From: Prototheca cutis | Taxonomy: Eukaryota; Chlorophyta; Trebouxiophyceae; Chlorellales; Chlorellaceae | Direction of reading: 5' to 3' | Length of the DNA stretch: 59,519 nucleotides | Assembly (NCBI GenBank): GCA_002897115.2 | Contig: BCIH01000002.1 | Span: 1,567,482 to 1,627,000, forward strand | Shown here: piece by piece, positions 12,169 to 45,480 of the stretch | How the letters are laid out: every line of letters begins with the position of its first letter | Position numbering within the stretch: position 1 is the stretch's first letter | Notes under the pieces: generated by a model | The model's database searches: none | What the model was told of the DNA's origin: nothing | The model's input: only the letters and a program-made list of their open reading frames with translations | Made by a program: the position numbers and the translations under genes

Positions 12169-12847
12169 TCACGCTTCCATCATGTCACTATCGTCCTGGT
12201 CAGGGGCATGCCCTGCGCCACCGTGCACCACTCCGCTACTGCCATCTTCCAGCTGCATGGCTGCCATGTCGTCGAGCAGTTCCTCCAGCGGGATGGTTGG
12301 CAGGCCACCTTCGCCGTCCTCATCATCCAAGGCCGGCGCTGCTGCCCGGGTGGCAGCGACGGCTTCGCCCTCTGGATCGCGGTAGATGGCGATGCGTGAG
12401 CGCAGCTCCGCGTCCTCCTCCAGCTCCTGCATGAACCGCTCGACGTCCTCGGCGCGAGCCTCGGCGTCGGCCGCGGCACGGCGTGCCCCCGCTCCCCTCG
12501 AGACCAGCCCCGCTTCGGCGCCTTCTTCGCCTGCCTCCATGTCCAGCCGCCGCAGCTTCCACGTGCGCCGCGCAGCGCCGCCCTGCCTCGCGGCGCGCGC
12601 GCGCCGCCGCTCCTCGTACGATTTCTTAAACAGAATTGCATCTGGAAGTGTCAGGCCCGAAGTCAGCGCGGCGTCCAGGGCGCCGTCGGCCACGTTGGCC
12701 GCGGCCAGGTCGTAGCCCCGCGCCGAGTCGCCGGCATGCAGCAGGTGGCCCAGGTGCGTGCGCGTGCTAATCACGCGGTCGTTGGCGCCTAAGTCCGCCG
12801 CCTTGGCCACCGTCGCGTCCGCCAGCAACCACTTCGTGTGGTTGTTA

Positions 12848-12883
<36 letters not shown>

Positions 12884-14884
12884 GTCATGGCCCCGGGGCC
12901 GCCATAGATGGGCTCGCAGTCCAAAACGATGTATTCACTCGACTGCTTGGCAGACATCATCGCCTTGAAGGGCGCGCGCCAGTATTGCGAGGCCTCCAGG
13001 CTCGCGCTCCGCAGCGTGGTGGGGTCTGTCAGTGTCAACGCATTGGTCACGCGCGTGACCAGGACCAGCGGGCCCAGATTGCCCAGCGCATGAGACAGCT
13101 TGGCCGGAAGGCACACCAGGTCGTCCTGTGTTATTTGTGGGGTTTTTTTGTGGGATTTTTGGTGATTCAGGGGTTTTTCGAAGGGGTGAACTGTGAACAT
13201 TGGATATATCCAGCTGGGGTCAGGCTTGGTACCCCCTGGCTTGCCCCCCCCCCCCCCCCCCCCCCCCCCCAAAAAAAAAGCAAAAAGGGCCTAGTCAAAT
13301 ACAGGGCAGACCTTGCAGATGGGGGCAATCTCCACAGAAAAGGTGTACTTGTAGTTGTAAGTAGAGGTGTGGATGTTGTGGCTGACCAGCTGCTTGTCGT
13401 GCCGGTACCGGAGGGGCACCACGCTCTGAAGGAAATCGATAAACTTGACTGCATGCGCACGGTTGTTGAAGAAAAAGTCCAGTCCCTGTTTTTAGAAAGG
13501 GGGAAAAAGGGGGCGGGTGTTTTGTGGGGCGTAGGGCGGTCCTGCGGTGGGACCCTTCAGGATGTGGTGGGAACTCTTTTCAAAGCGCGAGCATAGCAGG
13601 GCATTGAACCTGCCCCCCCCCCACACCACACCACGACCACCACACACACATTGTGGATGTCCTTGATGTTGATGCAGTTCTCGTCAGCCGAGTGCTTCAA
13701 GATGAGCTGCTCCAGAAACAGGAACGTTCGCTTGTGATGCACATGTTGCCGCAGCTGCAAGGCGAGAGGGGGATATTGTCAGAGGGGTGGGTTGAGAATC
13801 AGCCCGAGCGAGGTGGATTCCTTTTGATAAATTTCCTTCAAAGTGTAGTGCAAACCCCCCTTGCTGCTGGAAAACCACCGTTACATAATCCCTCACCTGC
13901 ACGCAGGCAACCCAGGAGTTTGGATTGGCGTTTTGCTTGTTGCACGCCGGGCACATGTGTCGCTCCACAATATAGTCCACCACAAATGCCTACAGAATGT
14001 GAGTGTGTGTGGCAATGGTAGGCTGTCACTACGGGCACTCGAACGCTCGACCGCCCATCAGGAGGGCAGCGTCTCAATTGCAGGCAGCACCGTTCAGGAC
14101 AGTTCAGCCCCCCCCAGCCCCCCCCCCCCCCCCCCACACACACACACAAATAAAACTTGCCTGCTGCAGGATGGCGCCGTTTAGGACCTCTGCCTGGATT
14201 GTGAGCTTGGTCTTGAGCCTCATGGAGTGTGGCTCTGTCCAAATAAAGCTCGCATCCACCAGCTTGACCTGCATGCATGTGGAGGCGATGGATTTTATCA
14301 GTTACCTGTGACTGCAAGCCAGCAAGCTCAAATAAGGAGAGCATTCTGGGTCAGCCTCAATTGACCAAGGAAGCGTACTCCCCACTCTCGCCCCCTCCCT
14401 CAGTCCGCTGCCCACCCTACCTTGTTCAGTCCCCTGACTCTCTTGATGCAGTAGGTGAGCAGCTCCTTGCTTTCCGGCTCAGCGTGCATCCAGTGCTTTG
14501 GAGGCTGGAGGTAGCGGCCGCAGCCCTTGCACCACAGAATGTTGACCTGCTTCTGGATGCCTTCAGTAATATCGACTTGGCCCTTGATGCAGTTGACGCA
14601 CATATTAGCTGGGTTGGGCAGGATACTCACCCCGCACATGCAGCAGGATCTGTAGTTAGTGGGTGGGCGTGCTGGTGATGACGGGGAGACGTTTTCAATG
14701 TGTGCGCTTGGCACCACATTCGTTCTTCCTACTGAACATGGGAGGTCCCATCACAGAAAGAACACGGCAGTCAGCTCGGCACAGAATTTCACAATGGATA
14801 TGCAAGGTTCACGTACACATAGCCCTGTGTCGAGGGATTGTGGAAGGTGGCTGTGGGCCCTGATTGGCCCCACATGCCGTCCAT
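12169..14884 (-). CDS. NMD3: 60S ribosomal subunit export adaptor NMD3
   Basis: Adaptor that binds pre-60S subunits and recruits the CRM1 exportin for nuclear exit. The N-terminal zinc-binding part has 'SCCMCGVSILPNPANMCVNC', then 'VDITEGIQKQVNILWCKGCG' and 'RYLQPPKHW'. Next come 'DASFIWTEPHSMRLKTKLT', 'HMCPACNKQNANPNSWVAC', 'KRTFLFLEQLILKH', 'LVCLPAKLSHALGNLGPLV', 'RTHLGHLLHAGDSARGYDL', 'LPDAILFKKSYEERRRARAA' and 'RTWKLRRLDME'. The acidic C-terminus with 'PLEELLDDMAAMQL' is where the nuclear export signal lies in the family. I place the start at 14884: the exon 'MDGMWGQSGPTATFHNPSTQ' followed by a donor at GTACGT joins in frame to the zinc exon, giving '..QGYVSCCMCG' like plant NMD3. Odd features are a run of 11 Gln (CAG repeat) near 12850-12883 before 'NNNHTKW' and very long C/G runs in two introns. 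Confidence 0.95.
12850..12883 (-). repeat. CAG trinucleotide repeat encoding poly-Gln in NMD3
   Basis: Eleven consecutive CTG units on the plus strand (CAG on the coding strand) give an 11-residue Gln run, followed by Asn-Asn-Asn. It sits in the variable loop of NMD3 between 'GGPGAMT' and 'HTKWLLAD', where other NMD3 proteins vary in length, so it is probably tolerated and length-polymorphic. Confidence 0.9.
13244..13279 (-). repeat. C27-A9 homopolymer pair in an NMD3 intron
   Basis: Twenty-seven C then nine A on the plus strand, so T9-G27 on the transcribed sense strand, inside an NMD3 intron. A second C run lies in another NMD3 intron near 14108-14136, followed by CA repeats. Both could be shorter or longer in the real genome. 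Confidence 0.85.
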
Positions 14885-23403: not shown

Positions 23404-23865
23404 ATGTCCCTCCCGAACCTACCTGGCAGGTCGCGCTCGCGGTCCCCCGAGCCTGCCTCCCGGAAGGATGGAGCGGAGGACAGGGACAAGCGGGTGAAGG
23501 AGCGGGCGCGCAGCTCCTCCCAGGATCGCAGGGATCGCAGGGAGCGTCGCAGGGACGACAGTAAGGACAGCCGGCGCCGGGAGCGCCGCAGGGACACGAG
23601 CAAGGACAGGGAGCGCCGCAGAGACAGGGACGATGACAGCAGCAGGAGGCGGCGATCGTCCAGCCGTGACAAGCGCCGTAGCAGCTCCAGGTTGGATTTT
23701 GCGCGTGTATTTGGGGGTGTTGAAGGCGTGGAGGTGTGTTTGGATGGATGATGATAAACAGTGTGGTTGTTGTTGGTGCGCTAGAGGGGTGTCTCTTTGG
23801 CACACGGAACTCAAGTCCCAAACTCCTGGTACCCACCCAGCCCATAGAATTTCCACCTGCTGTCT

Positions 23866-23955
<90 letters not shown>

Positions 23956-25697
23956 AGAACCCACCAATAAAGCAAAAAACAAACACTGCAGAGAGCGGCG
24001 GCGGCGGCGGTCACCTGATTCGCAGTCGCGGCGGTACAGGGATGACGGCCGGCGATCTCGGTCACCCCCCCCCCGCCGCCGGCGGGAGNCGNCGCCTCCC
24101 GAGGAGCGCGCGGCACGCGTGCGTGAAGCTGAGATTGAGAAGATGGACCGCGACATGCGCACGGTGTTCGCCTACAACCTCCCCCTGCGGGCGGAGGAGG
24201 CCGATCTGTTTGGCTTTTTCGTGCGGGCGGGGGCGCTGAGCGACATTCGCATCATCCGGGATCGGGGGTCAGGCCGTTCCAAGGGCGTGGCGTACGTGGA
24301 ATTTCAGCGGAAAGAGGATGCGCTGGGGTCGCTGGCGCTGGCGGGGCAACCCCTGCTGGGCCAGGCCGTCATGGTGAAGGCTTCGGAAGCCGAGAAGAAC
24401 CTGGCGTGGGAAGCGGCCGAAGCGCAAAAGGCCCAGGCCCGCGAAATGGAAGCCATGGGCTTGACCGCCCAGTTGCCTGCGGGAGCTGGCGGGAGTGCGC
24501 CAGGTGTTTCGAGCGGTCTGCTGGGCCTGGCGGTGGCCGGCGCGCCAGCTGCGGGCGACGCGGGCCCCTCAGCTGTGGCTGCGGGATCTGCAGCCGCACC
24601 CTCCACAGGAGGAGCCCTGGCAGCGATGCCGCTGGTGGACTTGAGCGACCCCGCGGCGGCAGCCGCAGCGGTGGCGGCGGCGGCAGGATTTGCGCCCGGC
24701 ACCGCCGTGGGACCCTGCCGACTCACCGTCTCGGGTCTGCACCCGGCCATCACCGAGGCCGATCTGCGGCCCATTTTTGAGCCGTTTGGTCTGCTGGATT
24801 CGGTGGCTCTCGCGCGGGATACCGCAGGTGCCAGTGCCGGGGTCGCGCATGTCCAGTTCAAGCTGATTGCCGATGCCACCAAGGCCATGCAGAGTCTCGA
24901 CCGCTTTGTCCTGGTGGACAGGCCCATCCGCGTGACGCTGGATGCCGCAGGGCTCAATCCGGGGGCCGAGCCCCCCGCCCCGGTTGTGCCCTCAAAACAG
25001 CCTGCTCTGGGCCCGGGGGACCAGCTGGATACGGGCGGGGCCGACGACGGCGGCGGTCTGCGCCTCACGGGTGCGGGCCGCGCCGCCCTCATGTCTGCCC
25101 TCGCCCAGGGCACCGACCTCCAGGTGCCCACCATGCAGCAGCTTGGTGGTGGGAGTAATGGTGGTCCTGCTGGTAGCACCGCTCCAGCTCGTGACCCGCT
25201 GGCCGCAGTACCGGAAGCTGTGCGCGTGGAGCAGGGTCTCCTAGGCCCGGCATCGCCCATTCCCACGCAGTGCGTGCTGATCAAGAACATGTTTGACCCA
25301 GCACAGGAGACCGAGCCGGACTGGGCCGAAGATATCGCTGCAGATGTCCGCGATGAATGCAGTCGTTTTGGGGAGGTTCTGCACACCTTTGTCGACCGCA
25401 ACAGCAAGGTCATTGGTGTTTTTTTTGTTTTTTGTTTTTTTTTTGTGTGTGTGTGTGGGGGGGGGGGTGGGTGGGTGGGTGTGCGTGTGTGTGTGTGGCT
25501 TGGTCCACCACCCTTGGAATACCGAGAACAACTGAACAACCCGCCCAATCTTGCAGGGCTTTGTGTACATCAAGTTTGGGGGCGTGCCGGCGGCCAGCGC
25601 GGCGCAGACGGCGCTGCACGGCCGCTGGTTTGCGGGCCGCCAGATCGCCGCCGTGTTTCAGTTTGCAGCAATGTACAACTCGCACTTTGGGCTCTGA
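23404..25697 (+). CDS. RBM39: RBM39/CAPER-like SR splicing factor
   Basis: Nuclear RNA-binding protein of the U2AF65-related group, acting in splice-site choice and transcription coactivation. Exon 1 is an Arg/Ser-rich domain ('PGRSRSRSPEP', 'RRDRRERRRDDSKDSRRRER'). After an intron holding a long CA repeat come more RS sequence ('RRRRSPDSQSRRYRDDGRRS') and RRM1 with RNP2 'RTVFAYNLP' and RNP1-like 'SKGVAYVEF'. RRM2 starts 'CRLTVSGLHPAITEADLRPI' with RNP1-like 'AGVAHVQF'. A linker leads to the C-terminal UHM-like RRM: 'TQCVLIKNMFDPAQETEPDW', 'DVRDECSRFGEVLHTFVD', then after an intron 'GFVYIKF' and 'ALHGRWFAGRQIAAVFQFA', ending 'MYNSHFGL' at 25697. Two ambiguous bases (24089, 24092) fall in the RS region. 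The order RS-RRM-RRM-UHM is diagnostic. Confidence 0.92.
23868..23950 (+). repeat. (CA)n microsatellite in RBM39 intron
   Basis: About 41 CA units without interruption, inside the first intron of the RBM39-like gene and just upstream of its 3' splice site. Confidence 0.95.
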
Positions 25698-27023
25698 GAA
25701 GGAGCATGTGGCAGGTGCCCAGGCGGCGAGAGGTCCGTGGGGGAAGGCTTCTGGAAAGCCATACCCCTGTATGCCACAACTACATCGGCTGCCCCCAATA
25801 CACAAAAGCGGTGGGCAGGTACCTCGGCGGGGACGACGACGCTGCGGTTTCCAATGTTTCTTTCTTTCCTTCAGAGGCTGTGGAGCAAGGCGTGGACGAC
25901 GTGGCCTGTGAGCGGATCAAGCACGAGACAGGCGCCTGTCTGGAAGCCTCTGCCCTTTCCCTGTTCTCATGCAGGCCCCTCTCTGTCTCTTGCGACCGGC
26001 CGGCGCGGCAAGGATGTCTCTCCTGGCACGGTTTGGTAATGCCTTGCGCCCGTGTGTCCCCGAGGTCCCAGCGCCGGCACTCCTCTTCCTGCGCAGGGCC
26101 ACACCTGTCATGAGCCACCCTGGCGCGGCCACCAGCACAGCCCTGGCTTGCAAAATCCTGACAGCAATACGGAGTCGATGTGGCGGCCTTTCGATACTGT
26201 GAGAAACAGGGTCCCTGGAATGGGAATGGGACTGGTTGCGTGGTGCCCATGGCCTTGGGGTGCACACCGAGGATGAGAGACCGGCCCCAGATCTCTGGCA
26301 GGTGCATGGTTGAGAGAAAATTAGCAAAGGACTCTGTCCCTTGTTATACACGCCCACCCACCTGGTATGAGACTCAGGCACCGGACTTGATCCACGCAGG
26401 CTAAAAGGTTCTCCTGAGAAGAACAGAGCCATGCCTGCTTGGCCACCATCGCAAGGGTGTTTCGACTGTCTTGATTTGAGCGAGTGTTGATTGATAACTG
26501 GCATGGGCATGGAATCCATCCTGGGCGGCGCTTCTTGTATGGAGAAGATGGGACTGGAATGATGGGCACACCGGTGGCCAAAGCGTGTGTTGCGGTCTGC
26601 AGCGAGTGGGCCCAGGGCTTGGTTGGGCCGAGGAAACCGACCCACCACACAGTTGGGGTATGCCTTGTTCGCATGGACACATGCACTTGCACAGCAACCT
26701 CACGAGAGAACGCTTCGTTGATGTGCAGGGAGCATCGCGAGGTACTGCATGGAGGGATGCAGTGCATGCAGATTGACAGTACGTCAGCAGGAGCGCTCTA
26801 CCAGACTTTTGCTGCTTGATTCGTGCATGTAACGAATGAACACACTTCATTCCAAGATGTCTAGGCAGTCCTGATGTCAGCTAGAATGGTGTACGAGGTG
26901 GTTCTTACAGGTCACCCTCTTCAAGACCTTTCTTGTGCCCTTCATGCTCCAACCAGTGTGCATGCATCATTCCCACAGAGATGGACACCACTCCTAGTGA
27001 GCATCGCCGACCCACATGTCGCA
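25698..27023. other. 1.3-kb stretch with no recognised gene
   Basis: Lies between the 3' ends of RBM39 (+) and uL4m (-). A plus-strand frame at 26014-26202 starts 'MSLLARFGNALRPCVPEVPA' and looks like a short basic, possibly organelle-targeted, peptide. No conserved domain or clear splice partner was found, so I do not call a gene. The rest is open-frame noise. Confidence 0.4.
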
Positions 27024-36334: not shown

Positions 36335-39300
36335 CTACAGAATCTCAGTTTCTTCGGCCTGTGACGCCAGCATCAGTTCATGCAGCTTGGCAGCCAGATC
36401 CTCCTCCCAGGCTGCATATCGCATAGCCAGCGTAGGCACGCCACCGTCGTCCTCGCATGCTTCGGCCTCGGCGGCCAGGCTGGCCAGGCGTCCCCGCAGG
36501 TGCCGCAGCTCCTCACCGGCTTCGCCCCTCAGCGCCTGCGCAATGCCCTCGACGCGAGCCAGCTGCGAGGTTCCACGCTGGAGGTGGAGCAGAAAAGCGC
36601 TGTCCTGAGCCTTCGGGGCCAGTCGTCTTTCAGTCCCAGAGGTGGTGACTGTCGAGGGAAGGGCCAGCGCCTGACTGGCCACTCGACCAGAAGCCCGCGG
36701 GCCCACGTTCGCGGGAAGACTGGTATGACGAGGAACCCCAGTGATCTTGCTCGGGAGCACTTTGGGTTGTTGGGCCAGCTGCTCCTCCAGCTGTCTGGTC
36801 AGCATGGCCACACGAGCTTCCGCGGCTTCTAGCTCGACTTCCCTTGCTGCAAGGCCCTTGTCTCGTTTCTCGAGATCGGCCTCCAGTTTCCCAAAGGCCG
36901 CGCGCTGCTCGGCACACGCACGCTGCGCCTGCTCCGCGCGGACCTTTTCCGACCGCGCCGTGTCCAGCTCCGCCTGTGCCCGGCGAGTCGTGTCCTCAGC
37001 CTTGGCCTCTAGACTGGCACACGAGCGCTGCGTGGCATCGATCAGACTCTCCGCCTCCCGCGCCGCGCTTTCCACCTGTGTTTCGAGTTGGGCGCTGTCG
37101 TTGCGGCATAGCATGAGCTTCAAAACGCATCACATGCCAGAAGACTGGCGACCTCATACATATGTACCCCTGGACAACACGAAAATCCCCTACTGCACAC
37201 CGTTTGCTTGGCCGTTTGACGTGCATCTTCCATCGCCTGCGCGGCTGTTTCACCTTCCCGTGCCAGTTCCGCAGCCATGGCGTCCAGTTGGGCTTCGCGC
37301 TCTGCGAGCCGGGCCTCGCGTCGAGCCAGGTCCTCGGCCGCACCTGCAACCCCAACCAGCTCCTCTCGCTCGCGGGACAGCTGTTCGCGGTCGCGGGACA
37401 GCTGTTCGCGCTCCTGGGCCGCCAGACGCGAAGCCAGAGCTGCCGCACGCTGCTCGCCTGCCAATGCAGCACGGGCCGTGTCCAAGTGGGAAGCCGTCTC
37501 CCGCAGCTCCGCCTCCCGCATGTCAAGGTCAGAGCACAGCCCCTGCGAGAAGGATGTGCGGTGGGCCAGCTGCCATTTCCATCACAAGCTCTCGTAATTG
37601 CAATCTGGATGAATCAAAACCAACAAAAATCCTCAGTCAAACCTGGAGCTTGGAGAGCCCCGCTTCGGCCGCACGAGCCCGATGGGCGGCGGCATCGGCC
37701 TCTGCCGCCGCACGGATGCTCAGCTGCTCGGCAGCCTCCGCGGCGCGCCGGCGCTCTTCCAGCTGCTCCAGCCTCGCCGTGCAGTCCCGCTGCTCCGCTA
37801 CGCGCTGCTCTGCCAGAGCAGCCTGGGCGGCCGCTGCGGCTTCAGCTTCGCGTGCCGCACGACGCACCGCGTCTTCCGTGTCGCGCTGTGCCGCACGCTG
37901 AGCAGCAGTCTGCTCGGCCAGTCGGCTCTCCTCCTCGGCCAGCCGCGCTGAGAGCAGCGCCAGCCGCCGCTCTTCCGCCGCCGCCAGCTCCTCGCGAGAC
38001 GACAGGTGCTTGGACTCGAGCTTTGGGATACAAGAGGTGGTCGGATGAGGAGGGGATGGCATGTCAGGGGGGGTTCATGGGTTGATCATTGCACACGTTG
38101 CAGGGTCTTTACCCTTCCCCAAACAGAGCCAGAACACCTCCCCCTTCTTCCCAAAGCTCTGTGCAGACCTCACCTCCACAGCGCGAAGTTCTGACTCGCG
38201 GAGGATGACAGCCCGCAGACGAGCCTCCAAGTCCGCCTGGCAGGAAAGCAAGGGGTATGTGTTACGGAGCACGCCCTCTGCAGCAACAACTATCAATGCC
38301 ACTCACCCCTCCCGCGCCCACACACCTGCTGGGACTGGAGTCGCTCTCTCGTGGCTGCCAGCTCTGCCGCTTGCCCGCAGGCGTCCTGCAGCATGTTCTC
38401 GGCCTGCAGTGGAATATGGGCGGGGATGTGAGCGACGTCATGTGCGGACAGCTTCCTGACAGTCAGCAAGCTCTCTCGAGACTTGATGCGCCAATCAGCG
38501 CATCCTGCATAGAACGAGGAAATTCCAGCAACAACAAACATCCCCCCCTTCCCAACCAAAAAACGGAGCATACCTTGTCACGAGCCAGGGCGGCCTCCCG
38601 GCTGTCGGTCCGTGCCTTGGTCAAAAGTTCTTCGGCCTTGGCAGCATCAGTCCTGGCCCGCTCCTCACGTGCAGCGAGCCGCCGGCACTGCTCCTCCGCC
38701 TCACCCTGCTGCTCCAGCAACGTCCGTTCCCGCCTCTGGGTCATTGGTTGGGAGGGCATGCATGCTCATGGCGGTGCTGCGGCTCTTTTGGGGTCTTGCT
38801 GTGCGTGTCATCTTCCTCTGCGTCCCCCCCCCCCCCTCCCCCTCCTCACAAAGCACTACCACCAACCTCCAGGTCGTTGATGCTGTCCTCGAGCTCCTCT
38901 TTAAGTTTTGAGCATCGCTGTCGCTCGGCTTCGCCGCGGCGCCACGCCTCGCGCTCTTCGGCCAGCGCTCCCCGCTTCGCCTCGAGCCCTGCCAAGTCAG
39001 TCTTGACCCTTTGCAGCTGCTCCTCCGCTTCGGCAATCTCCTTGGCTGTCTGCTCCATGCGCTGAGCCTGAGCTTTGAAAGCGGTGGCCTGACGCTCGGC
39101 CTCGGCCATCCAGCCTTCTTGCTCAGCTCGAAGTCCAGCAACAGCGGAAGCCAGGGAATCAAGCTCAGCCCTCCTGGCCTGGAGCTTGACATCCTCCGCC
39201 TGGGCAGACGCTTGGCGGGCATCCAATTCCGAAGCACGCTCGGCGTACCTCGAGGCCCGTGCTTCAGCTTCGGCCTCGCGAGCATCCAGGCGGAGCAAAC

Positions 39301-40973
39301 GATCATCGAGCTCGCGCCGTGCCGCGTCCAGTGCCCTCGAGTCGTGTTCCAGCGCCGTGCGCGCCGCATCAAGCTCCCGGACCGCAGCCAGCTTCCGGTC
39401 AGCTTCCTCGGCCGCAGCAACAGCCGCCAACCTTCGGCGCTCCAGCTCCTGCTCCTCCCGGGACTGCCCCAGTGGGAAGACGTGGTTGCTTGTCATGACT
39501 CAAGGCATTGGTTTGGGTGCACCGTTGAGAAGGGCAATTCATTCCGCCACCCAAGAATCCACCAATCCGCCCTACGCTCTCACCAGACGCTCCTGCTGGG
39601 CCAGTAACGCAGCAGCCAAGCCATCCAGCTCGGTCGCCCGGGCTTCGGCGGCGGTGTCCCGGCGCTCGCAGGCGGCCTGCTGTTGTCTCGCCGCGTTTCG
39701 CGTGGCTTCGCACTCTTTCACGCGCTGCTGCGCATCGGCTTTCGCGCTCGCAGCCTCCTGCTCTACCAGTCGAGCCCGGTCTTCAGCCATTCTCAGGTTC
39801 TCGACCCGTTCCTCAAGCGCCTCACGCATCGACGCCAGCAGCGTCTCCTCCTCACGCAGCGCGGTCGCTCGGCGGTCGTTGCCGAGCTGTTCCGCCTTTA
39901 GAGCCGCCTCTGCCTCGCCGAGCGCTGCCGCCCGTTCGGCAGCCTGGCCCAGCTGCGCGTCAGCTTCCCTGCCCCGTGCCTGAGCTTCTTGCAGCTGGGC
40001 ATCGACCTCCTCAGCCCGGGATTCGAGGGCACGCTCACGGCGGGCCAGATCAGCCGCCGCCTGCTCGAGCGCACGGGACCGCACGCCAACTTCCTCGTGC
40101 TCTGATTCTGCGGCCGCCAGCTGCAGGCGCGCCGCCGATTCTAGCTCTGCCACCTCGGCGGCCTGGGCCTCCAGGGTCTGGAGCTCCTCCAGCGATGCAT
40201 GAAGTCGGGCCTCGGCCTCGGCCGCACTATCTTCCCGCAGCGTCAATGCCTCAGCCCGCTCTGTGACTGCTCGTTCCAGCTCGGTCACGCGAGCAAGTTC
40301 GTGCACGCTTTCTTCCTTCAAACGCTTTGCACGATGCTGGAGCTCTTCGGCGGCGGCGAGGGCCTCAGCGGCTGCCACCTCCCGCCGTTCAAGCTCAGCT
40401 GCCCTGGCCACCAATGCTTCGACCTCGGCATCGAGATCCCGCTTCCTGTAAAGAAGTGGATTTGAGTAGTGTTCTTATCCTGTCTCCTCACGAGCCATTG
40501 AGTGGGCACGTGTGGGAAGGTGGTACGACAACTTGGGACCAAACCCTGGCAATCCACGTGCCTCACTTCACCTGTGACACCACCACCGCCCGCTGCGTTG
40601 CAGCCTGTCCACTATACACCCACACAAAGATACATACCTGGATTCCAGGGTCTCGGCTTCGGCATCGAGAGCCTCACGCCGGGTCCGAAACCTGGTTCCT
40701 TGTTGCTCCGCATCTGCAACCTGCCCCTGCAGCGCCGCGCGCTCACGCTTGCACTCGGCGCGCTGGGCTTCGATGTCGCCGCGCAGCTGCTCGGCAGCCG
40801 CCCGGTCGGCGATGAGCCGTGCTCGGTCGTCGTCCAGCTCGCGCCGCTGCGCCTGCAGCACACGTTGACGCTCCTGCAGGTGCTTGTTGCTTTCTTCCAC
40901 CGCCTGTGCCACCGTCTGCAGCAGGAGTTGCATCAGCGAGTCGGTCGACTCGTTATCTGCGCAAATCGTTCTG

Positions 40974-41015
<42 letters not shown>

Positions 41016-44000
41016 AAAAAACCCCCCCCCCCCCCCCCCCCCCCCCCCAACACACCCCCCCCCCCCCCACAACACACACACACACAAATAAAACCGCTGT
41101 CACAGTGCCCTGGCAGTAGCAATCACAACCTCCCACCTCGAGCGATGCCTGCTGTGATTTGATCTGCTCAGCCTCTGCCTCTGCTGCAGCCCTGGCGGTT
41201 TCTGCTTGAGCCAGTGCCACCTGAGCCTCTTCAAGTCGCGATACGAGGGGCTGCCTGATGCGGGTGAGATTTTCCGCCCAGCCTCGCAGTGCCTGCTCCC
41301 ACTCCAGCAGCACCAGCCGCCGCTGTTGCGGCGGGATGGCAGCAAGGAGAGTGGTGGGGTCGGACGGCCGGACTTTGGCGTGAACAGGTGCGTACGGTTC
41401 TCAGGGCTGCCCACTAACAAACACTCCGCAATGACATCCACACAGAAAGCACTTGCCGGGTTCAGCAACCGAGAAACTCCCAAAATTACCTCGCAAATGG
41501 CCCGCAGCAGTTCGGACATGTCGGCTTGGCAGCCGGCAGGAAGCTGCGGCAACGACGGCTGTGTGGGAGGCGGTGGGATGGCGATGCGGTCGGCACTGTC
41601 GCACGAGGGTGCAGGCCCTCCCAACCCATTTCCCTGCACGGCTTGGAGCTTGGCGTCCAGCTCGAGCAGGGCCTTCAGCGCGGCCTGCGTGGCGGCGTTG
41701 TCACGCTCGGCACGCTGTGCGGCGGCCTCGGCCTCGGCCCTTGTTCTGGCCGCAGACTCTGCAGTGCCCTGGACCCGAGCCGCCTCTTGAGCGTGCTGTG
41801 CTTCCCGGGTCTGGAGCTGAACGAGGGACCCGGCCAGGTCGGCTTCACGGCGATCCAGGCCCTGCTCGCGGGCATGCAGTTGTGCCAGCGTGGCCTCCGC
41901 TGCCGCCGCCTGTTGCCGGGCACGCTCCGCGTCGGCAGCCGCAGCGCTTTCCAACTCGGCGGCGTGGGCCTCCCGTGCCTCTGCCCGGCGCGCCACCTCC
42001 TCCACCTCCTCCACCGACTGCCGCAGCTCTTTCGTCGCTTCGTCAAGGCGCCGTTGCTCTTCTTTAACAGCCCGTTCCGCGCTTTCCAGCTCGACACGCC
42101 GCGTCTCCAGTTGCGAAGACTGGCGGTCCAGCTCGCTCGTGCGCTGCGCGATACGGGCCTCGCCGCTCTTCACGCGGGCCGCTCTTTCCTCGAGTGCCTG
42201 AAGGGGTTTTTATATGGTCGTTGGTGGGTTTCAGGTGACAAAGGTCCCGGAGCATGGGCTTGGCCTTTCGACCCAAATCCCACAAGGCACCCCTCAAAAC
42301 ACCCCTCAAAACAGACCTGGCGTTGCTCGGCTTCGCGTGATTCCACTTCACGGGCGTGCTCTTCTAGTTCTCGTGCGTGCGCCAGGGAGGCTTGTTCACG
42401 CTGCAGCGCGGCCGACTCTCGACTGGCCAGGGCCGCTCGTGCTGCGGCATCGCGCTCCTGGACCTCCCGCTCACGTTTCTCCAAACGCTCCTGCCAGTCG
42501 CGGAGAAGGGCCTCGCGATCCTGCACCTCGCGGCGGGCCTCGGCCTCGAATGCTTCACGATCACGCTCGAGCTCTGCCCGGGCTTGCTGCAGTTCGTGCT
42601 GCGCAGCCTGTGTTGGGGAGGTGAAGAGAAATTGCTGGGGTTTGGGGTTGGTGGTGCGCCGCTTCTCGAGCACCTGACAACAAGAGCAAGGTTATTGCCC
42701 GCGACAACCTCCATGCACGGAGCTCTCAACCCAACCCAATCGAGAAATCAACGAGGCGCACACCTCAAGGGCTCGCTGACGGCCGGCGAGATCTTCCAGT
42801 TCTCCGCGTAAATTTGCAGCATCAATCTCGAGACGCTGCCGCGCCTCGGCGGCACGTGCCTGAGCCTCATCCGCAGCCTCACCAATGGCCTGCGCCTTTT
42901 CCTGCGTCTCGCGTGCATGTTCACGTGCGGCCCGCGCTGCGGCCAGCTCCTCGTTACGAAGGTGCTCGAGCTCGGTCACCGACGCCTCGCGGGACGCCAC
43001 CTCAGCGGCACGGGCTTCCAGCTCAGCAGCCTCGCGGGACAGCTGTTCCTCCAGCGCGTCCCGTTCCGAGGAAAGCGCGGCGTGCGCCGCGCGCACACGC
43101 TCCAAGTCCTCCTTGGCCTCTTGCAGAGCCGCCTCCAGTGCCTCCCCCTGCTCCATGCTCGCCTGTAGTACAAAGTGTTGCAAGGGTAGTTTTTCCTTCC
43201 CATAGTGAGAGTGCATAGAATGCAGAGCGCATAGGGTTTCCTTGAAAATCAATCGCCTGCCTCTCATCGATGCAACCACCACCACCACCACGAGCATCAT
43301 ACCCGGCGTGCCTCCGCGGCTGCGGCCAGCGTGGCGGCCCGGTCTTCCACGGCAAGCTCCAGCTCTCGTCTCGTCGCGGCCAAGGAAGAGGCGGCTTCAG
43401 CTTCGGCTTCCGTGGCCTCCTGCAGTCGCCGCGTGGCTTCCGCCGCTGCAGCTTCCAAGTGAGCCAGTTCCTGCCGCAGTCGCCCGTGAGAGGCCTCGTC
43501 AGCTGCCGCACGTGTGGCCCGGGCTTCATCAGCTCGACGGGCTGCGGCTTTGTCGGCTTCAAGCGACATCCTCGCTTCGCGCTCCCGTGCATCCCAGCGC
43601 GAGCGCTCGGCATTCAGCGACGATTGCACCGCATCGAGTTCTGCGCTGCGCGCGGCGACCGCGGATTCTGCATCTGCTACTGCGGCCTCACGGTCGCGCA
43701 CGCGCCCTGCGAGTCCCTCGAGCTCCGCGGCACGACGGGCGAGCTCGGTCTCGCGGCTCTGGATCGCCTCCATGGCAGTCTCAGCGGCAGCAACGCGGGC
43801 TTCGCGCCGCCTCAAGCCTTCCCCAGCCTGCACCGCGCCTTCTCGGCAGGCGCGTTCCCAGCGCTGCAGCTCCTCGCCACGCCGTGCCAGGGCCGCCGCC
43901 GCGGTTTCCACCGCCGCCGCACGTTCGTCCAGCTCTCGTGCACGACGGGCGGCAGACTCGCGCGCATGGCGTGCCGCGGCACCAGCTTCGGCGCGCGCAC

Positions 44001-44789
44001 GGGCCGCCTCTGCCTCTGCCTCGGTCCGCTCGGCGGTCGCCTGGCGGGCCGCCGCACGAGCCTCGTCGCACTCCCGCTGCAGCCGATCCCGCTCGGCCTG
44101 TGGAGGGAATGGCCTTGGTGTTTGAGCTCGGCAGGCGCCCTCATTCTTGCTGCAGGATCGCAGAAGTGAGTCCCTCCCGGCCGTAGGAGCGGTGCCCTTC
44201 CCAATTGCAGCCCCCCGTCCCCCGATCAGGAGGAAGCCAAAGCACAAAAACCCCATTCGTAACCTGCAGGCGCTGTAGGTCGGATGCATGAGAGGGAGAC
44301 CCGACCGTCAAGTGCGCCGAGCTGCCGTCCAGGTAACGACGGCGGCCATCAGGCGTGCGCTTCACAGGGCTGCGCCCATTCAGGCCGGAGCCGTCCGGCA
44401 GGGGCCGGAGCTTTGGTGGCGATGCCAGCCAACCCCCATGGTAGGCTGGAATGCTGCCCGTCGGTGAGTACGCACCTGCTACACGGTCCTGTCCAGGTGA
44501 CAGGGCCGGCTCATCATGCCGGGCAAGGCCTGCCTTGGGCAGCAGAGCATCACGCTGGGACGCCCGCTGCTGCACGCGCTGCTCCTGCACATCCCACTGC
44601 ACACAAGGGCGGCGTCCATGGACGCAGGTTTGAAAACCAAGCAAGAGAGCCTGCAGCTTGTGCTGTGGGATTGCATGGCAGCTCGTCATTCCCCGGGGAG
44701 CGTCCATCATGCCCACCACAGACCCCCCGGTCTACCTGTGCTGCCAGCTCCCGAAACCTGCTCAGAGGGTCCTGCGCCTGTGGAGACAT
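36335..44789 (-). CDS. Very long Ala/Glu/Arg-rich coiled-coil protein
   Basis: One gene of about 16 exons and, by my estimate, about 2,000 residues. It begins 'MSPQAQDPLSRFRELAAQ' (start 44789), followed by a non-helical Pro/Ser/Gly region ('SPTGSIPAYHGGWLASPPKL', 'GRSPVKRTPDGRRRYLDGSS'). From about 44100 to 36850 almost every exon is heptad-rich: for example, 'ERDRLQRECDEARAAARQAT', 'RETELARRAAELEGLAGRVR', 'ERDALEEQLSREAAELEARA', 'EQLSRDREQLSREREELVGV', 'RADLEKRDKGLAAREVELEA'-like sequence. Exon ends are in heptad register with no long break, so the product should be a rod. The C-terminus is less regular ('LLHLQRGTSQLARVEGIAQA', 'MRYAAWEEDLAAKLHELMLA') and ends 'EETEIL'. No motor, kinase or membrane domain is seen. 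A structural role (cytoskeleton, centrosome-like, nuclear periphery or Golgi tether) is possible, but sequence cannot decide. Confidence 0.75.
37372..37413 (-). repeat. Tandem duplication of a 21-base heptad unit in the coiled-coil gene
   Basis: Adjacent near-identical units 'CGGGACAGCTGTTCGCG' (plus strand) encode the repeated heptads in 'EQLSRDREQLSREREEL'. It shows in miniature how the rod may have grown. Confidence 0.7.
40976..41068 (-). repeat. Compound C/A homopolymer tract in a coiled-coil gene intron
   Basis: About 38 C, 8 A, 27 C, then mixed CA and 14 more C on the plus strand, so G-rich on the sense strand of the gene. It sits in an intron between exons ending near 40960 and starting near 41135. 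Confidence 0.85.
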
Positions 44790-45130
44790 GTCAAACGCCG
44801 CTCAATATGCACATGTCTAAAGCCCGCGAGTCGTCATCTGGCATGGCCGGGGTGGGCCATGCTCGACGCGGGGGGGTGGCAGGCCTGCAGCAGGTTCGGA
44901 GAGACCGCTCGCGCCCTCCACCTGGGCCCCGCTCCCCGCAGTATTCCAGGAACGTCGAAATGCAATGCCGCGTATTGGATGCCTACGAGAAGGCCTGCAA
45001 GACTGGCGATGGGAGAACCGACAGGCTGCCAGAAGAACAAAATTCAAACGGCGCTCCGGTCGTCGCGGCGAGAGGTGAATTTGGATTTATATAAACCACG
45101 AATGGTGGCCTCCCATCGAACCATCTGATC
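44790..45130. other. Coiled-coil gene promoter side and tRNA leader
   Basis: No protein gene seen. The right part holds the upstream elements of the tRNA gene, listed separately. Confidence 0.4.
45086..45095 (+). promoter_or_regulatory. TATA-like element upstream of the permuted tRNA gene
   Basis: 'TTTATATAAA' in an otherwise GC-rich region, 36-45 bases upstream of the first tRNA base (45131). TATA-like elements near -30 assist RNA polymerase III on many plant and algal tRNA genes. This could matter more when the internal A and B boxes are in reversed order. Confidence 0.5.
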
Positions 45131-45217
45131 TGCAGGAGGTCCCAGGTTCAATTCCTGGATGGTCCACTGTCCGAATCCCGGGCTATTAGCTCAGTTGGTA
45201 GAGCGCCTGCTTAGCAT
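45131..45217 (+). tRNA. Circularly permuted tRNA-Ala(AGC) gene
   Basis: The 3' half comes first: 45131-45166 gives base 38 (T), anticodon 3' strand GCAGG, variable AGGTC, T arm CCAGG-TTCAATT-CCTGG, acceptor 3' strand ATGGTCC and discriminator A. A 13-base spacer (45167-45179) follows. The 5' half is 45180-45217: acceptor GGGCTAT, TA, D arm GCTC-AGTTGGTA-GAGC, G26, anticodon 5' strand CCTGC and loop TTAGCA with anticodon AGC; T45217 is an alternative base 38. Reordered, all four stems pair fully: acceptor 7 bp with G3:U70, D 4 bp, anticodon 5 bp, T 5 bp. G15-C48, G18G19, T54T55C56 and A58 are all in place. G3:U70 is the alanine identity pair. The B box 'GGTTCAATTCC' lies upstream of the A box 'TAGCTCAGTTGG'. 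Flanks 5'-TTAG (45217-45220) and 5'-CTGA (45125-45128) can pair to form a splicing-endonuclease-type helix with a 3-base bulge TCT. No CCA is encoded. Confidence 0.92.
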
Positions 45218-45480
45218 TAGTTTTGTTCCTTTTTGCTTTTTTCGCTGTTATTTATTTGGGCAGCCGCCCTCGTCAAGAGAGCTGACCTCTTCATTTTGCA
45301 CCTGGCCTGGGCACTGCGTTCTCGGGCCAGCAGGTTCTCCAGGCTGTCGGACACATGGAAAGGCAGCGGGAAAGAATTGACGCGTTCATGCTGGGTTTCG
45401 GCATCCCCGTGGATGATGTACATTGTCCATGCCTGCCAGCCTTTCGGTATGATGCGTGCGTGGCAGTCTCGTGATTGCAG
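45218..45480 (-). other. Protein-like open segment, unassigned
   Basis: The minus-strand frame ends next to the tRNA and contains 'RIIPKGWQAWTMYIIHGDAE' and 'RVNSFPLPFHVSDSLENLLA' followed by basic residues. Composition is protein-like and a splice acceptor is possible near 45470, but no upstream exon could be linked and no family was recognised. It may be the 3' exon of an unknown minus-strand gene or chance. Confidence 0.25.
45221..45242 (+). terminator. RNA polymerase III terminator (T runs)
   Basis: A T4 run begins at 45221, four bases after the tRNA 5' half, and T5 to T6 runs follow within 20 bases. This is the expected position for Pol III termination of the permuted precursor. Confidence 0.7.

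Follow-up and report, generated by a model that had tools for sequence, protein, structure and literature searches.

Permuted tRNA genes and the mechanism that matures them are already known, and the gene described here comes from a lineage whose related genus, Auxenochlorella, has them. A review from 2014 lists 34 such genes from seven species and gives 37/38 as the usual green-algal junction, describing an hBH motif at 37/38 in green-algal permuted tRNAs (PMC3978253). The permuted genes of Auxenochlorella UTEX 250-A, reported in 2025 (Plant Cell, PMC12636532; preprint PMC12633428) and found, by that account, because the tRNAscan-SE set was incomplete, share with those here the order of the halves and their place in a trebouxiophyte nuclear genome, whereas the genome here is without detected light-harvesting proteins. 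Our search for chlorophyll a/b-binding proteins gave no candidate in this genome and matched only a cyanobacterium among 14 control genomes, so the absence of light-harvesting proteins is not proven by it. For Ostreococcus and Micromonas, whose permuted genes are likewise green algal and nuclear, the review (citing Maruyama 2010) places the junction at 37/38 in 18 of 19 genes and describes the hBH motif, and its Table 1 has Cys(GCA) and Asn(GTT) in common with our genome but, unlike our genome, not Ala(AGC), Ile(AAT), Trp(CCA) or Arg(CCG) (PMC3978253). Cyanidioschyzon merolae, as presented in the same review, resembles our genome in having 11 permuted genes, an upstream TATA-like element, a downstream T-stretch, duplication (one gene there, Gly CCC, in two copies) and a permuted Thr(CGT), and the circular intermediate that we infer here has been demonstrated there; it differs in junctions at 20/21, 37/38, 50/51 and 59/60 where all 11 here lie at 37/38, and in a permuted Ala that is TGC with junction 59/60 rather than AGC with 37/38 (PMC3978253). 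The permuted tRNA-Ser genes of chlorarachniophyte nucleomorphs share a green-algal origin and the 37/38 junction, but these sources give only two per genome where present and record their loss in two species (PMC4494063, PMC3978253). For Prototheca, we found no published report of permuted tRNA genes in a search that left most subscription papers outside; the P. cutis genome paper names tRNAscan-SE for plastid genomes (PMC5772498).

Against this background, we evaluated a locus in the window (the whole stretch of P. cutis DNA analysed, 59,519 bases long), for which the original prediction had proposed a tRNA-Ala gene with its halves in swapped order. We confirmed that 45131-45216 is a real tRNA-Ala(AGC) with swapped halves, and we hold it highly probable that the gene is nuclear, circularly permuted in the type II (37/38) manner, and functional. 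Two further permuted copies are near-identical to it, and the three together appear to be the genome's only source of this tRNA. The features of the window gene, with the evidence for each in brackets, are the following.

45088..45095, plus strand: TATA-like TATATAAA, a possible upstream polymerase III element, 44 bases before base 39 (sequence)
45125..45128, plus strand: leader CTGA, pairing with loop bases 32-35, the central helix of the hBH motif (register test, 11 genes)
45129..45131, plus strand: three-base bulge TCT with predicted cut 45130/45131 (follows from the register)
45131..45166, plus strand: 3' half of tRNA-Ala(AGC), T38 to discriminator A73, with a B-box-like T arm (sequence, ARAGORN, covariance model)
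45167..45179, plus strand: intervening spacer, 13 nt, removal by RNase P and RNase Z expected (sequence)
45180..45216, plus strand: 5' half of tRNA-Ala(AGC), G1 to A37 (sequence, ARAGORN, covariance model)
45211-45214, plus strand: partner TTAG, bases 32-35 of the anticodon loop (register test)
45213-45215, plus strand: anticodon AGC (within the 5' half)
45215..45217, plus strand: three-base bulge CAT (C36, A37 and the first trailer base) with predicted cut 45216/45217 (follows from the register)
45221..45242, plus strand: T-runs TTTT, TTTTT and TTTTTT, resembling a polymerase III terminator (sequence)

As in type II (37/38) permuted genes, the 3' half lies upstream of the 5' half, with the intervening sequence between the acceptor ends. 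Rejoined, the halves make a 73-nt tRNA-Ala(AGC) with a complete cloverleaf, the stems of which (acceptor 7 bp, D 4 bp, anticodon 5 bp, T 5 bp) contain no mismatched pair and two acceptor wobbles (G3:U70 and U5:G68), and the conserved tRNA bases are in place (U8, A14, G15-C48, G18G19, U33, T54T55C56, A73); CCA is not encoded in the gene. G3:U70 is the alanine identity pair. Given the reordered 73-mer, ARAGORN calls tRNA-Ala(AGC), and with the anticodon and G3:U70 this bears out the predicted alanine identity, as the sequence, ARAGORN and the covariance score below bear out the swapped halves, the 13-base spacer and the mismatch-free stems. ARAGORN finds no tRNA in the native-order window, just as an ordinary scanner had been expected to miss the gene. 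The predicted end at 45217 had to be corrected, as it counts base 38 twice and the 5' half ends at 45216; because T stands at both 45131 and 45217, only one of which fits the tRNA, the join is ambiguous by one base, and BLAST of the joined tRNA returns the matching segments 1-38 and 38-73.

Scoring the window with a covariance model (R2) built from six permuted genes of the same genome, with no Ala among them, we found 45132-45216 at 65.7 bits (E 1.3e-20) and the runner-up site at 8.6 bits (E 1.5), these E-values being rough because the model calibration was short. A low covariance score had been named as evidence against the original prediction, and a model without Ala genes gave the reverse. 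Doubling 160-base segments of the window (n = 1450, segments with N excluded), we obtained an ARAGORN tRNA across the join in only two, both covering the tRNA-Ala locus, and in 0 of 1450 doubled segments from the reversed window.

Searching the genome (19,886,974 bases, 23 contigs), we found at least 11 permuted genes belonging to 7 isoacceptors, three of them multi-copy (Ala AGC with three genes, Ile AAT and Asn GTT with two each) and the others single (Cys, anticodon GCA; Thr CGT; Arg CCG; Trp, anticodon CCA), and by our reading of the sequence the junction is at 37/38 in all 11. The Rfam YrlA model contributed nine matches (L018-L026), all below its cut-off, and ARAGORN on doubled segments read every one of them as a permuted tRNA (Ile(AAT) twice, Cys(GCA), Ala(AGC) three times, Thr(CGT), Arg and Trp(CCA)), to which R2 added a permuted Asn(GTT) in the flank of the Thr locus L024 and BLAST a second Asn copy on contig C3. 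This total is a minimum, since the YrlA genome search scored only 46 of its 1045 first-look candidates. Another model, R1, trained on eight of the 11 genes (the Ala copy L022 and both Asn genes excluded) and run over 32 sources (the window and 31 loci), scored the 11 at 61 to 86 bits and its ten remaining matches (E up to 0.01), which lie in or beside ordinary tRNA loci, at 17 to 26 bits. In native order, ARAGORN detected none of the 11 and made one doubtful low-complexity call in their ten loci. Two of its calls were set aside: anticodon CCT at the Arg locus L025, rejected as shifted with the stem CCACC/GGTGG giving CCG, and the doubtful native-order call itself, an ordinary Arg(TCG) at 1132-1212 of L024, in a low-complexity GC-rich stretch. 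The three permuted Ala copies are on three contigs (C2, C6, C7) with different flanks and differ by one base in the tRNA; the 13-nt spacer of the window gene recurs unchanged in L022, and that of L023 has the same length and other letters. Separately, we observed that the permuted Thr(CGT) and one permuted Asn(GTT) are same-strand neighbours in L024 (contig C18, about 44.2-45.7 kb), separated by about 1.3 kb. We also observed that the YrlA model acts as an accidental finder of 37/38-permuted tRNAs in this genome (nine of nine sub-threshold matches), and that 13 of the 14 control genomes, all prokaryotic, also have matches to it below the cut-off.

Looking for a normal tRNA-Ala(AGC), a check that the original prediction had proposed, we found none at BLAST sensitivity (E up to 10), the six matches being the halves of the three permuted genes, nor any ordinary copy of the other six isoacceptors, for which 16 BLAST matches were the halves at eight permuted loci. 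The RF00005 search, with 63 of 246 candidates scored, returned 17 ordinary tRNAs, none from the seven permuted isoacceptors: Lys(CTT) twice, Arg(ACG) twice, Arg(CCT), Phe, Met, Leu(CAG) three times, Leu(CAA), Asp three times, Pro(AGG) twice and Pro(CGG). Because that search scored only a part of its candidates, a diverged ordinary tRNA-Ala could escape detection. With a set of plant-like tRNA probes we recovered ordinary Leu and Arg genes and nothing else, a sensitivity too low for extending the inventory. Anticodon-loop introns of 30 to 48 nt interrupt seven of the 17 ordinary tRNAs (L011-L017; three Asp, three Pro and Leu CAA).

These introns provide a reference for the flanks of the permuted genes. 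The last bases of a eukaryotic pre-tRNA intron pair with the anticodon loop, starting at base 32, with three-base bulges at the cuts, and the position of the cut inside the bulge is established. Placing the leaders of all 11 permuted genes in this intron-like register (offset 4), we found a summed longest pair run of 35 versus 17.8 for random leaders and 22.0 for leaders shuffled among genes, with 0 of 20,000 as good in either comparison. No run enrichment appeared over the 11 genes at offsets 2, 3, 6 and 7 (p 0.34 or more), offset 5 carried little signal (p 0.044 versus random leaders), and in a grid of 132 registers the intron-like one came top (z +6.0). With each isoacceptor represented by one gene, p ran from 0 of 20,000 to 0.0068 over all 12 possible choices; without the Ala genes, the remaining eight gave p 0.0012 and the window gene by itself, with its four hBH-type pairs, p 0.037. 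Counting against this register, the helix is missing in Ile1 and Cys among the 11 genes tested, and in both Asn genes 4 to 5 pairs form one base out of register. As a positive control we used six of the seven ordinary intron genes (L013 excluded; three exon ends were tried in each gene and the one placing the anticodon at 34-36 was kept), among which two Asp, Pro(CGG) and Leu(CAA) form four pairs at 32-35 and the two Pro(AGG) genes form two pairs in the same register. Whole-flank folding of cognate versus swapped leaders and trailers, which the register test supersedes, gave moderate signals only (p 0.011, 0.0037 and 0.0175 for three lengths, nine genes).

The flank helix of the original prediction therefore survives in part: leader CTGA (45125-45128) and the TCT bulge stand, whereas its chosen partner, the TTAG at 45217-45220 (4, 4 and 3 pairs in the Ala genes; z +3.1 across the set), gives way to the better TTAG at 45211-45214. 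The cuts that it had placed beside base 38 hold as far as a sequence can test them, with 45130/45131 and 45216/45217 as the predicted sites. Because the leader pairs in the three-base-bulge register of ordinary-tRNA introns in the same genome, 37/38 is the most likely cutting site of the splicing endonuclease, circularisation and end processing then following as in other algae.

Evaluating transcription signals, we found the window gene to resemble type II genes in having its TATA-like element upstream and its T-stretch downstream, neither of them in the spacer. TATA-like strings, as a bare count, lie upstream of only four of the 11 permuted genes, the window gene included; a run of at least four T within 25 nt past the junction follows all 11, versus 4.9% of plus-strand window positions, and no T4 run occurs inside the 11 permuted cores. 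Among processing enzymes, the tRNA-splicing endonuclease family PF01974 has two matches in the genome, RtcB ligase has one, split over four exon pieces, and protein-only RNase P (PRORP) is matched in part; ligase family PF09511 had no genome match, and the same search matched in no control genome either. Polymerase III would make a single RNA running from the leader through 3' half, spacer and 5' half to the trailer, in which the anticodon stem would close the precursor structure and the leader, taking the place of the intron 3' end, would pair with loop bases 32-35 to present a helix-bulge target like that of an ordinary tRNA intron. Cutting at 37/38, the tRNA splicing endonuclease would then free the RNA of leader and trailer, 37 would be joined to 38 by a ligase (probably RtcB) to close a circle, and RNase P and RNase Z would excise the spacer before CCA addition; A34 would probably be edited to inosine, and the product would presumably be charged.

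Other readings of the locus have to be weighed against a functional permuted gene. Duplication and loss is one published model for the origin of permuted genes (PMC3978253), and the locus might on that model be a relic: an ordinary tRNA gene would have been duplicated in tandem and the outer halves lost, so that only the inner ones survive, neither expressed nor needed any more; yet the stems are intact, three Ala copies on three contigs differ by a single tRNA base, BLAST finds no ordinary tRNA-Ala(AGC) copy, and the leader/loop pairing is kept over different isoacceptors, all of which makes this quite improbable.

Less credible still is an artefact of assembly, by which two halves of an ordinary gene were put in reversed order, as the original prediction had itself considered: the window does hold 365 N in runs and so comes from a scaffolded draft, but the same swapped order recurs at 11 loci with different flanks, the three Ala loci and six other isoacceptors among them, and the spacers differ between two Ala copies, leaving misassembly a negligible probability. 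We regard as hardly plausible, too, that the site encodes a Y-RNA-like (YrlA) non-coding RNA instead of a tRNA. The YrlA model (Rfam RF02553) does score the site at 29.2 bits (E 0.0013), where a T-arm-like hairpin precedes a D-arm-like one, but neither this nor any of the nine genome matches (best 37 bits) reaches the gathering cut-off of 69 bits, and a full anticodon arm with AGC, the pair G3:U70 and an architecture shared by seven different anticodons are on the side of the tRNA.

Returning to the permuted tRNA-Ala gene and its relatives, at least ten more swapped tRNA genes are present in the same genome, which probably belongs to a colourless green alga, and for this reason the cell appears to rely on transcript rearrangement to read the genetic code. 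The case is more than an isolated curiosity because permuted genes are numerous, ordinary substitutes are apparently lacking, the genes have spread in permuted form, and the leader goes with its anticodon loop. A broader proposal, to which we give an even chance, is that permutation is a main form of tRNA gene in this non-photosynthetic alga, that at least seven isoacceptors, tRNA-Ala(AGC) among them, come from permuted genes only, that the genes multiply as permuted cassettes, that leaders co-evolve with anticodon loops and that decoding depends on circular RNA intermediates; if so, a full inventory may show permuted isoacceptors equalling or outnumbering ordinary ones. It is now testable whether permuted genes persist as the only source of a tRNA, and how a leader keeps the splice target when the anticodon loop differs. 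These results also suggest that ordinary-scanner tRNA counts may be incomplete in related algae, although the P. wickerhamii genome, for which 64 tRNA genes by tRNAscan are given, covering all tRNAs except selenocysteine and with no hint in that account of missing isoacceptors, argues against a simple undercount (PMC7941945).

Around the gene, the window has a G+C content mostly near 60% (2-kb steps). Long open frames occupy both strands at 36335-44289, those of the minus strand Ala/Glu/Arg-rich, with a negative GC skew at about 36-44 kb, and the two frames tested there (36335-37114 and 43297-44289) had no Pfam match. An open frame at 23633-26113 (plus strand) carries two RRM domains and an RBM39 linker, the make-up of a splicing-factor-like protein; the long run of HT repeats at its amino end may be non-coding. 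The last part of an NMD3 gene (60S ribosome export) lies at 12169-13200 on the minus strand, with its best relative in Auxenochlorella protothecoides at 56% identity.
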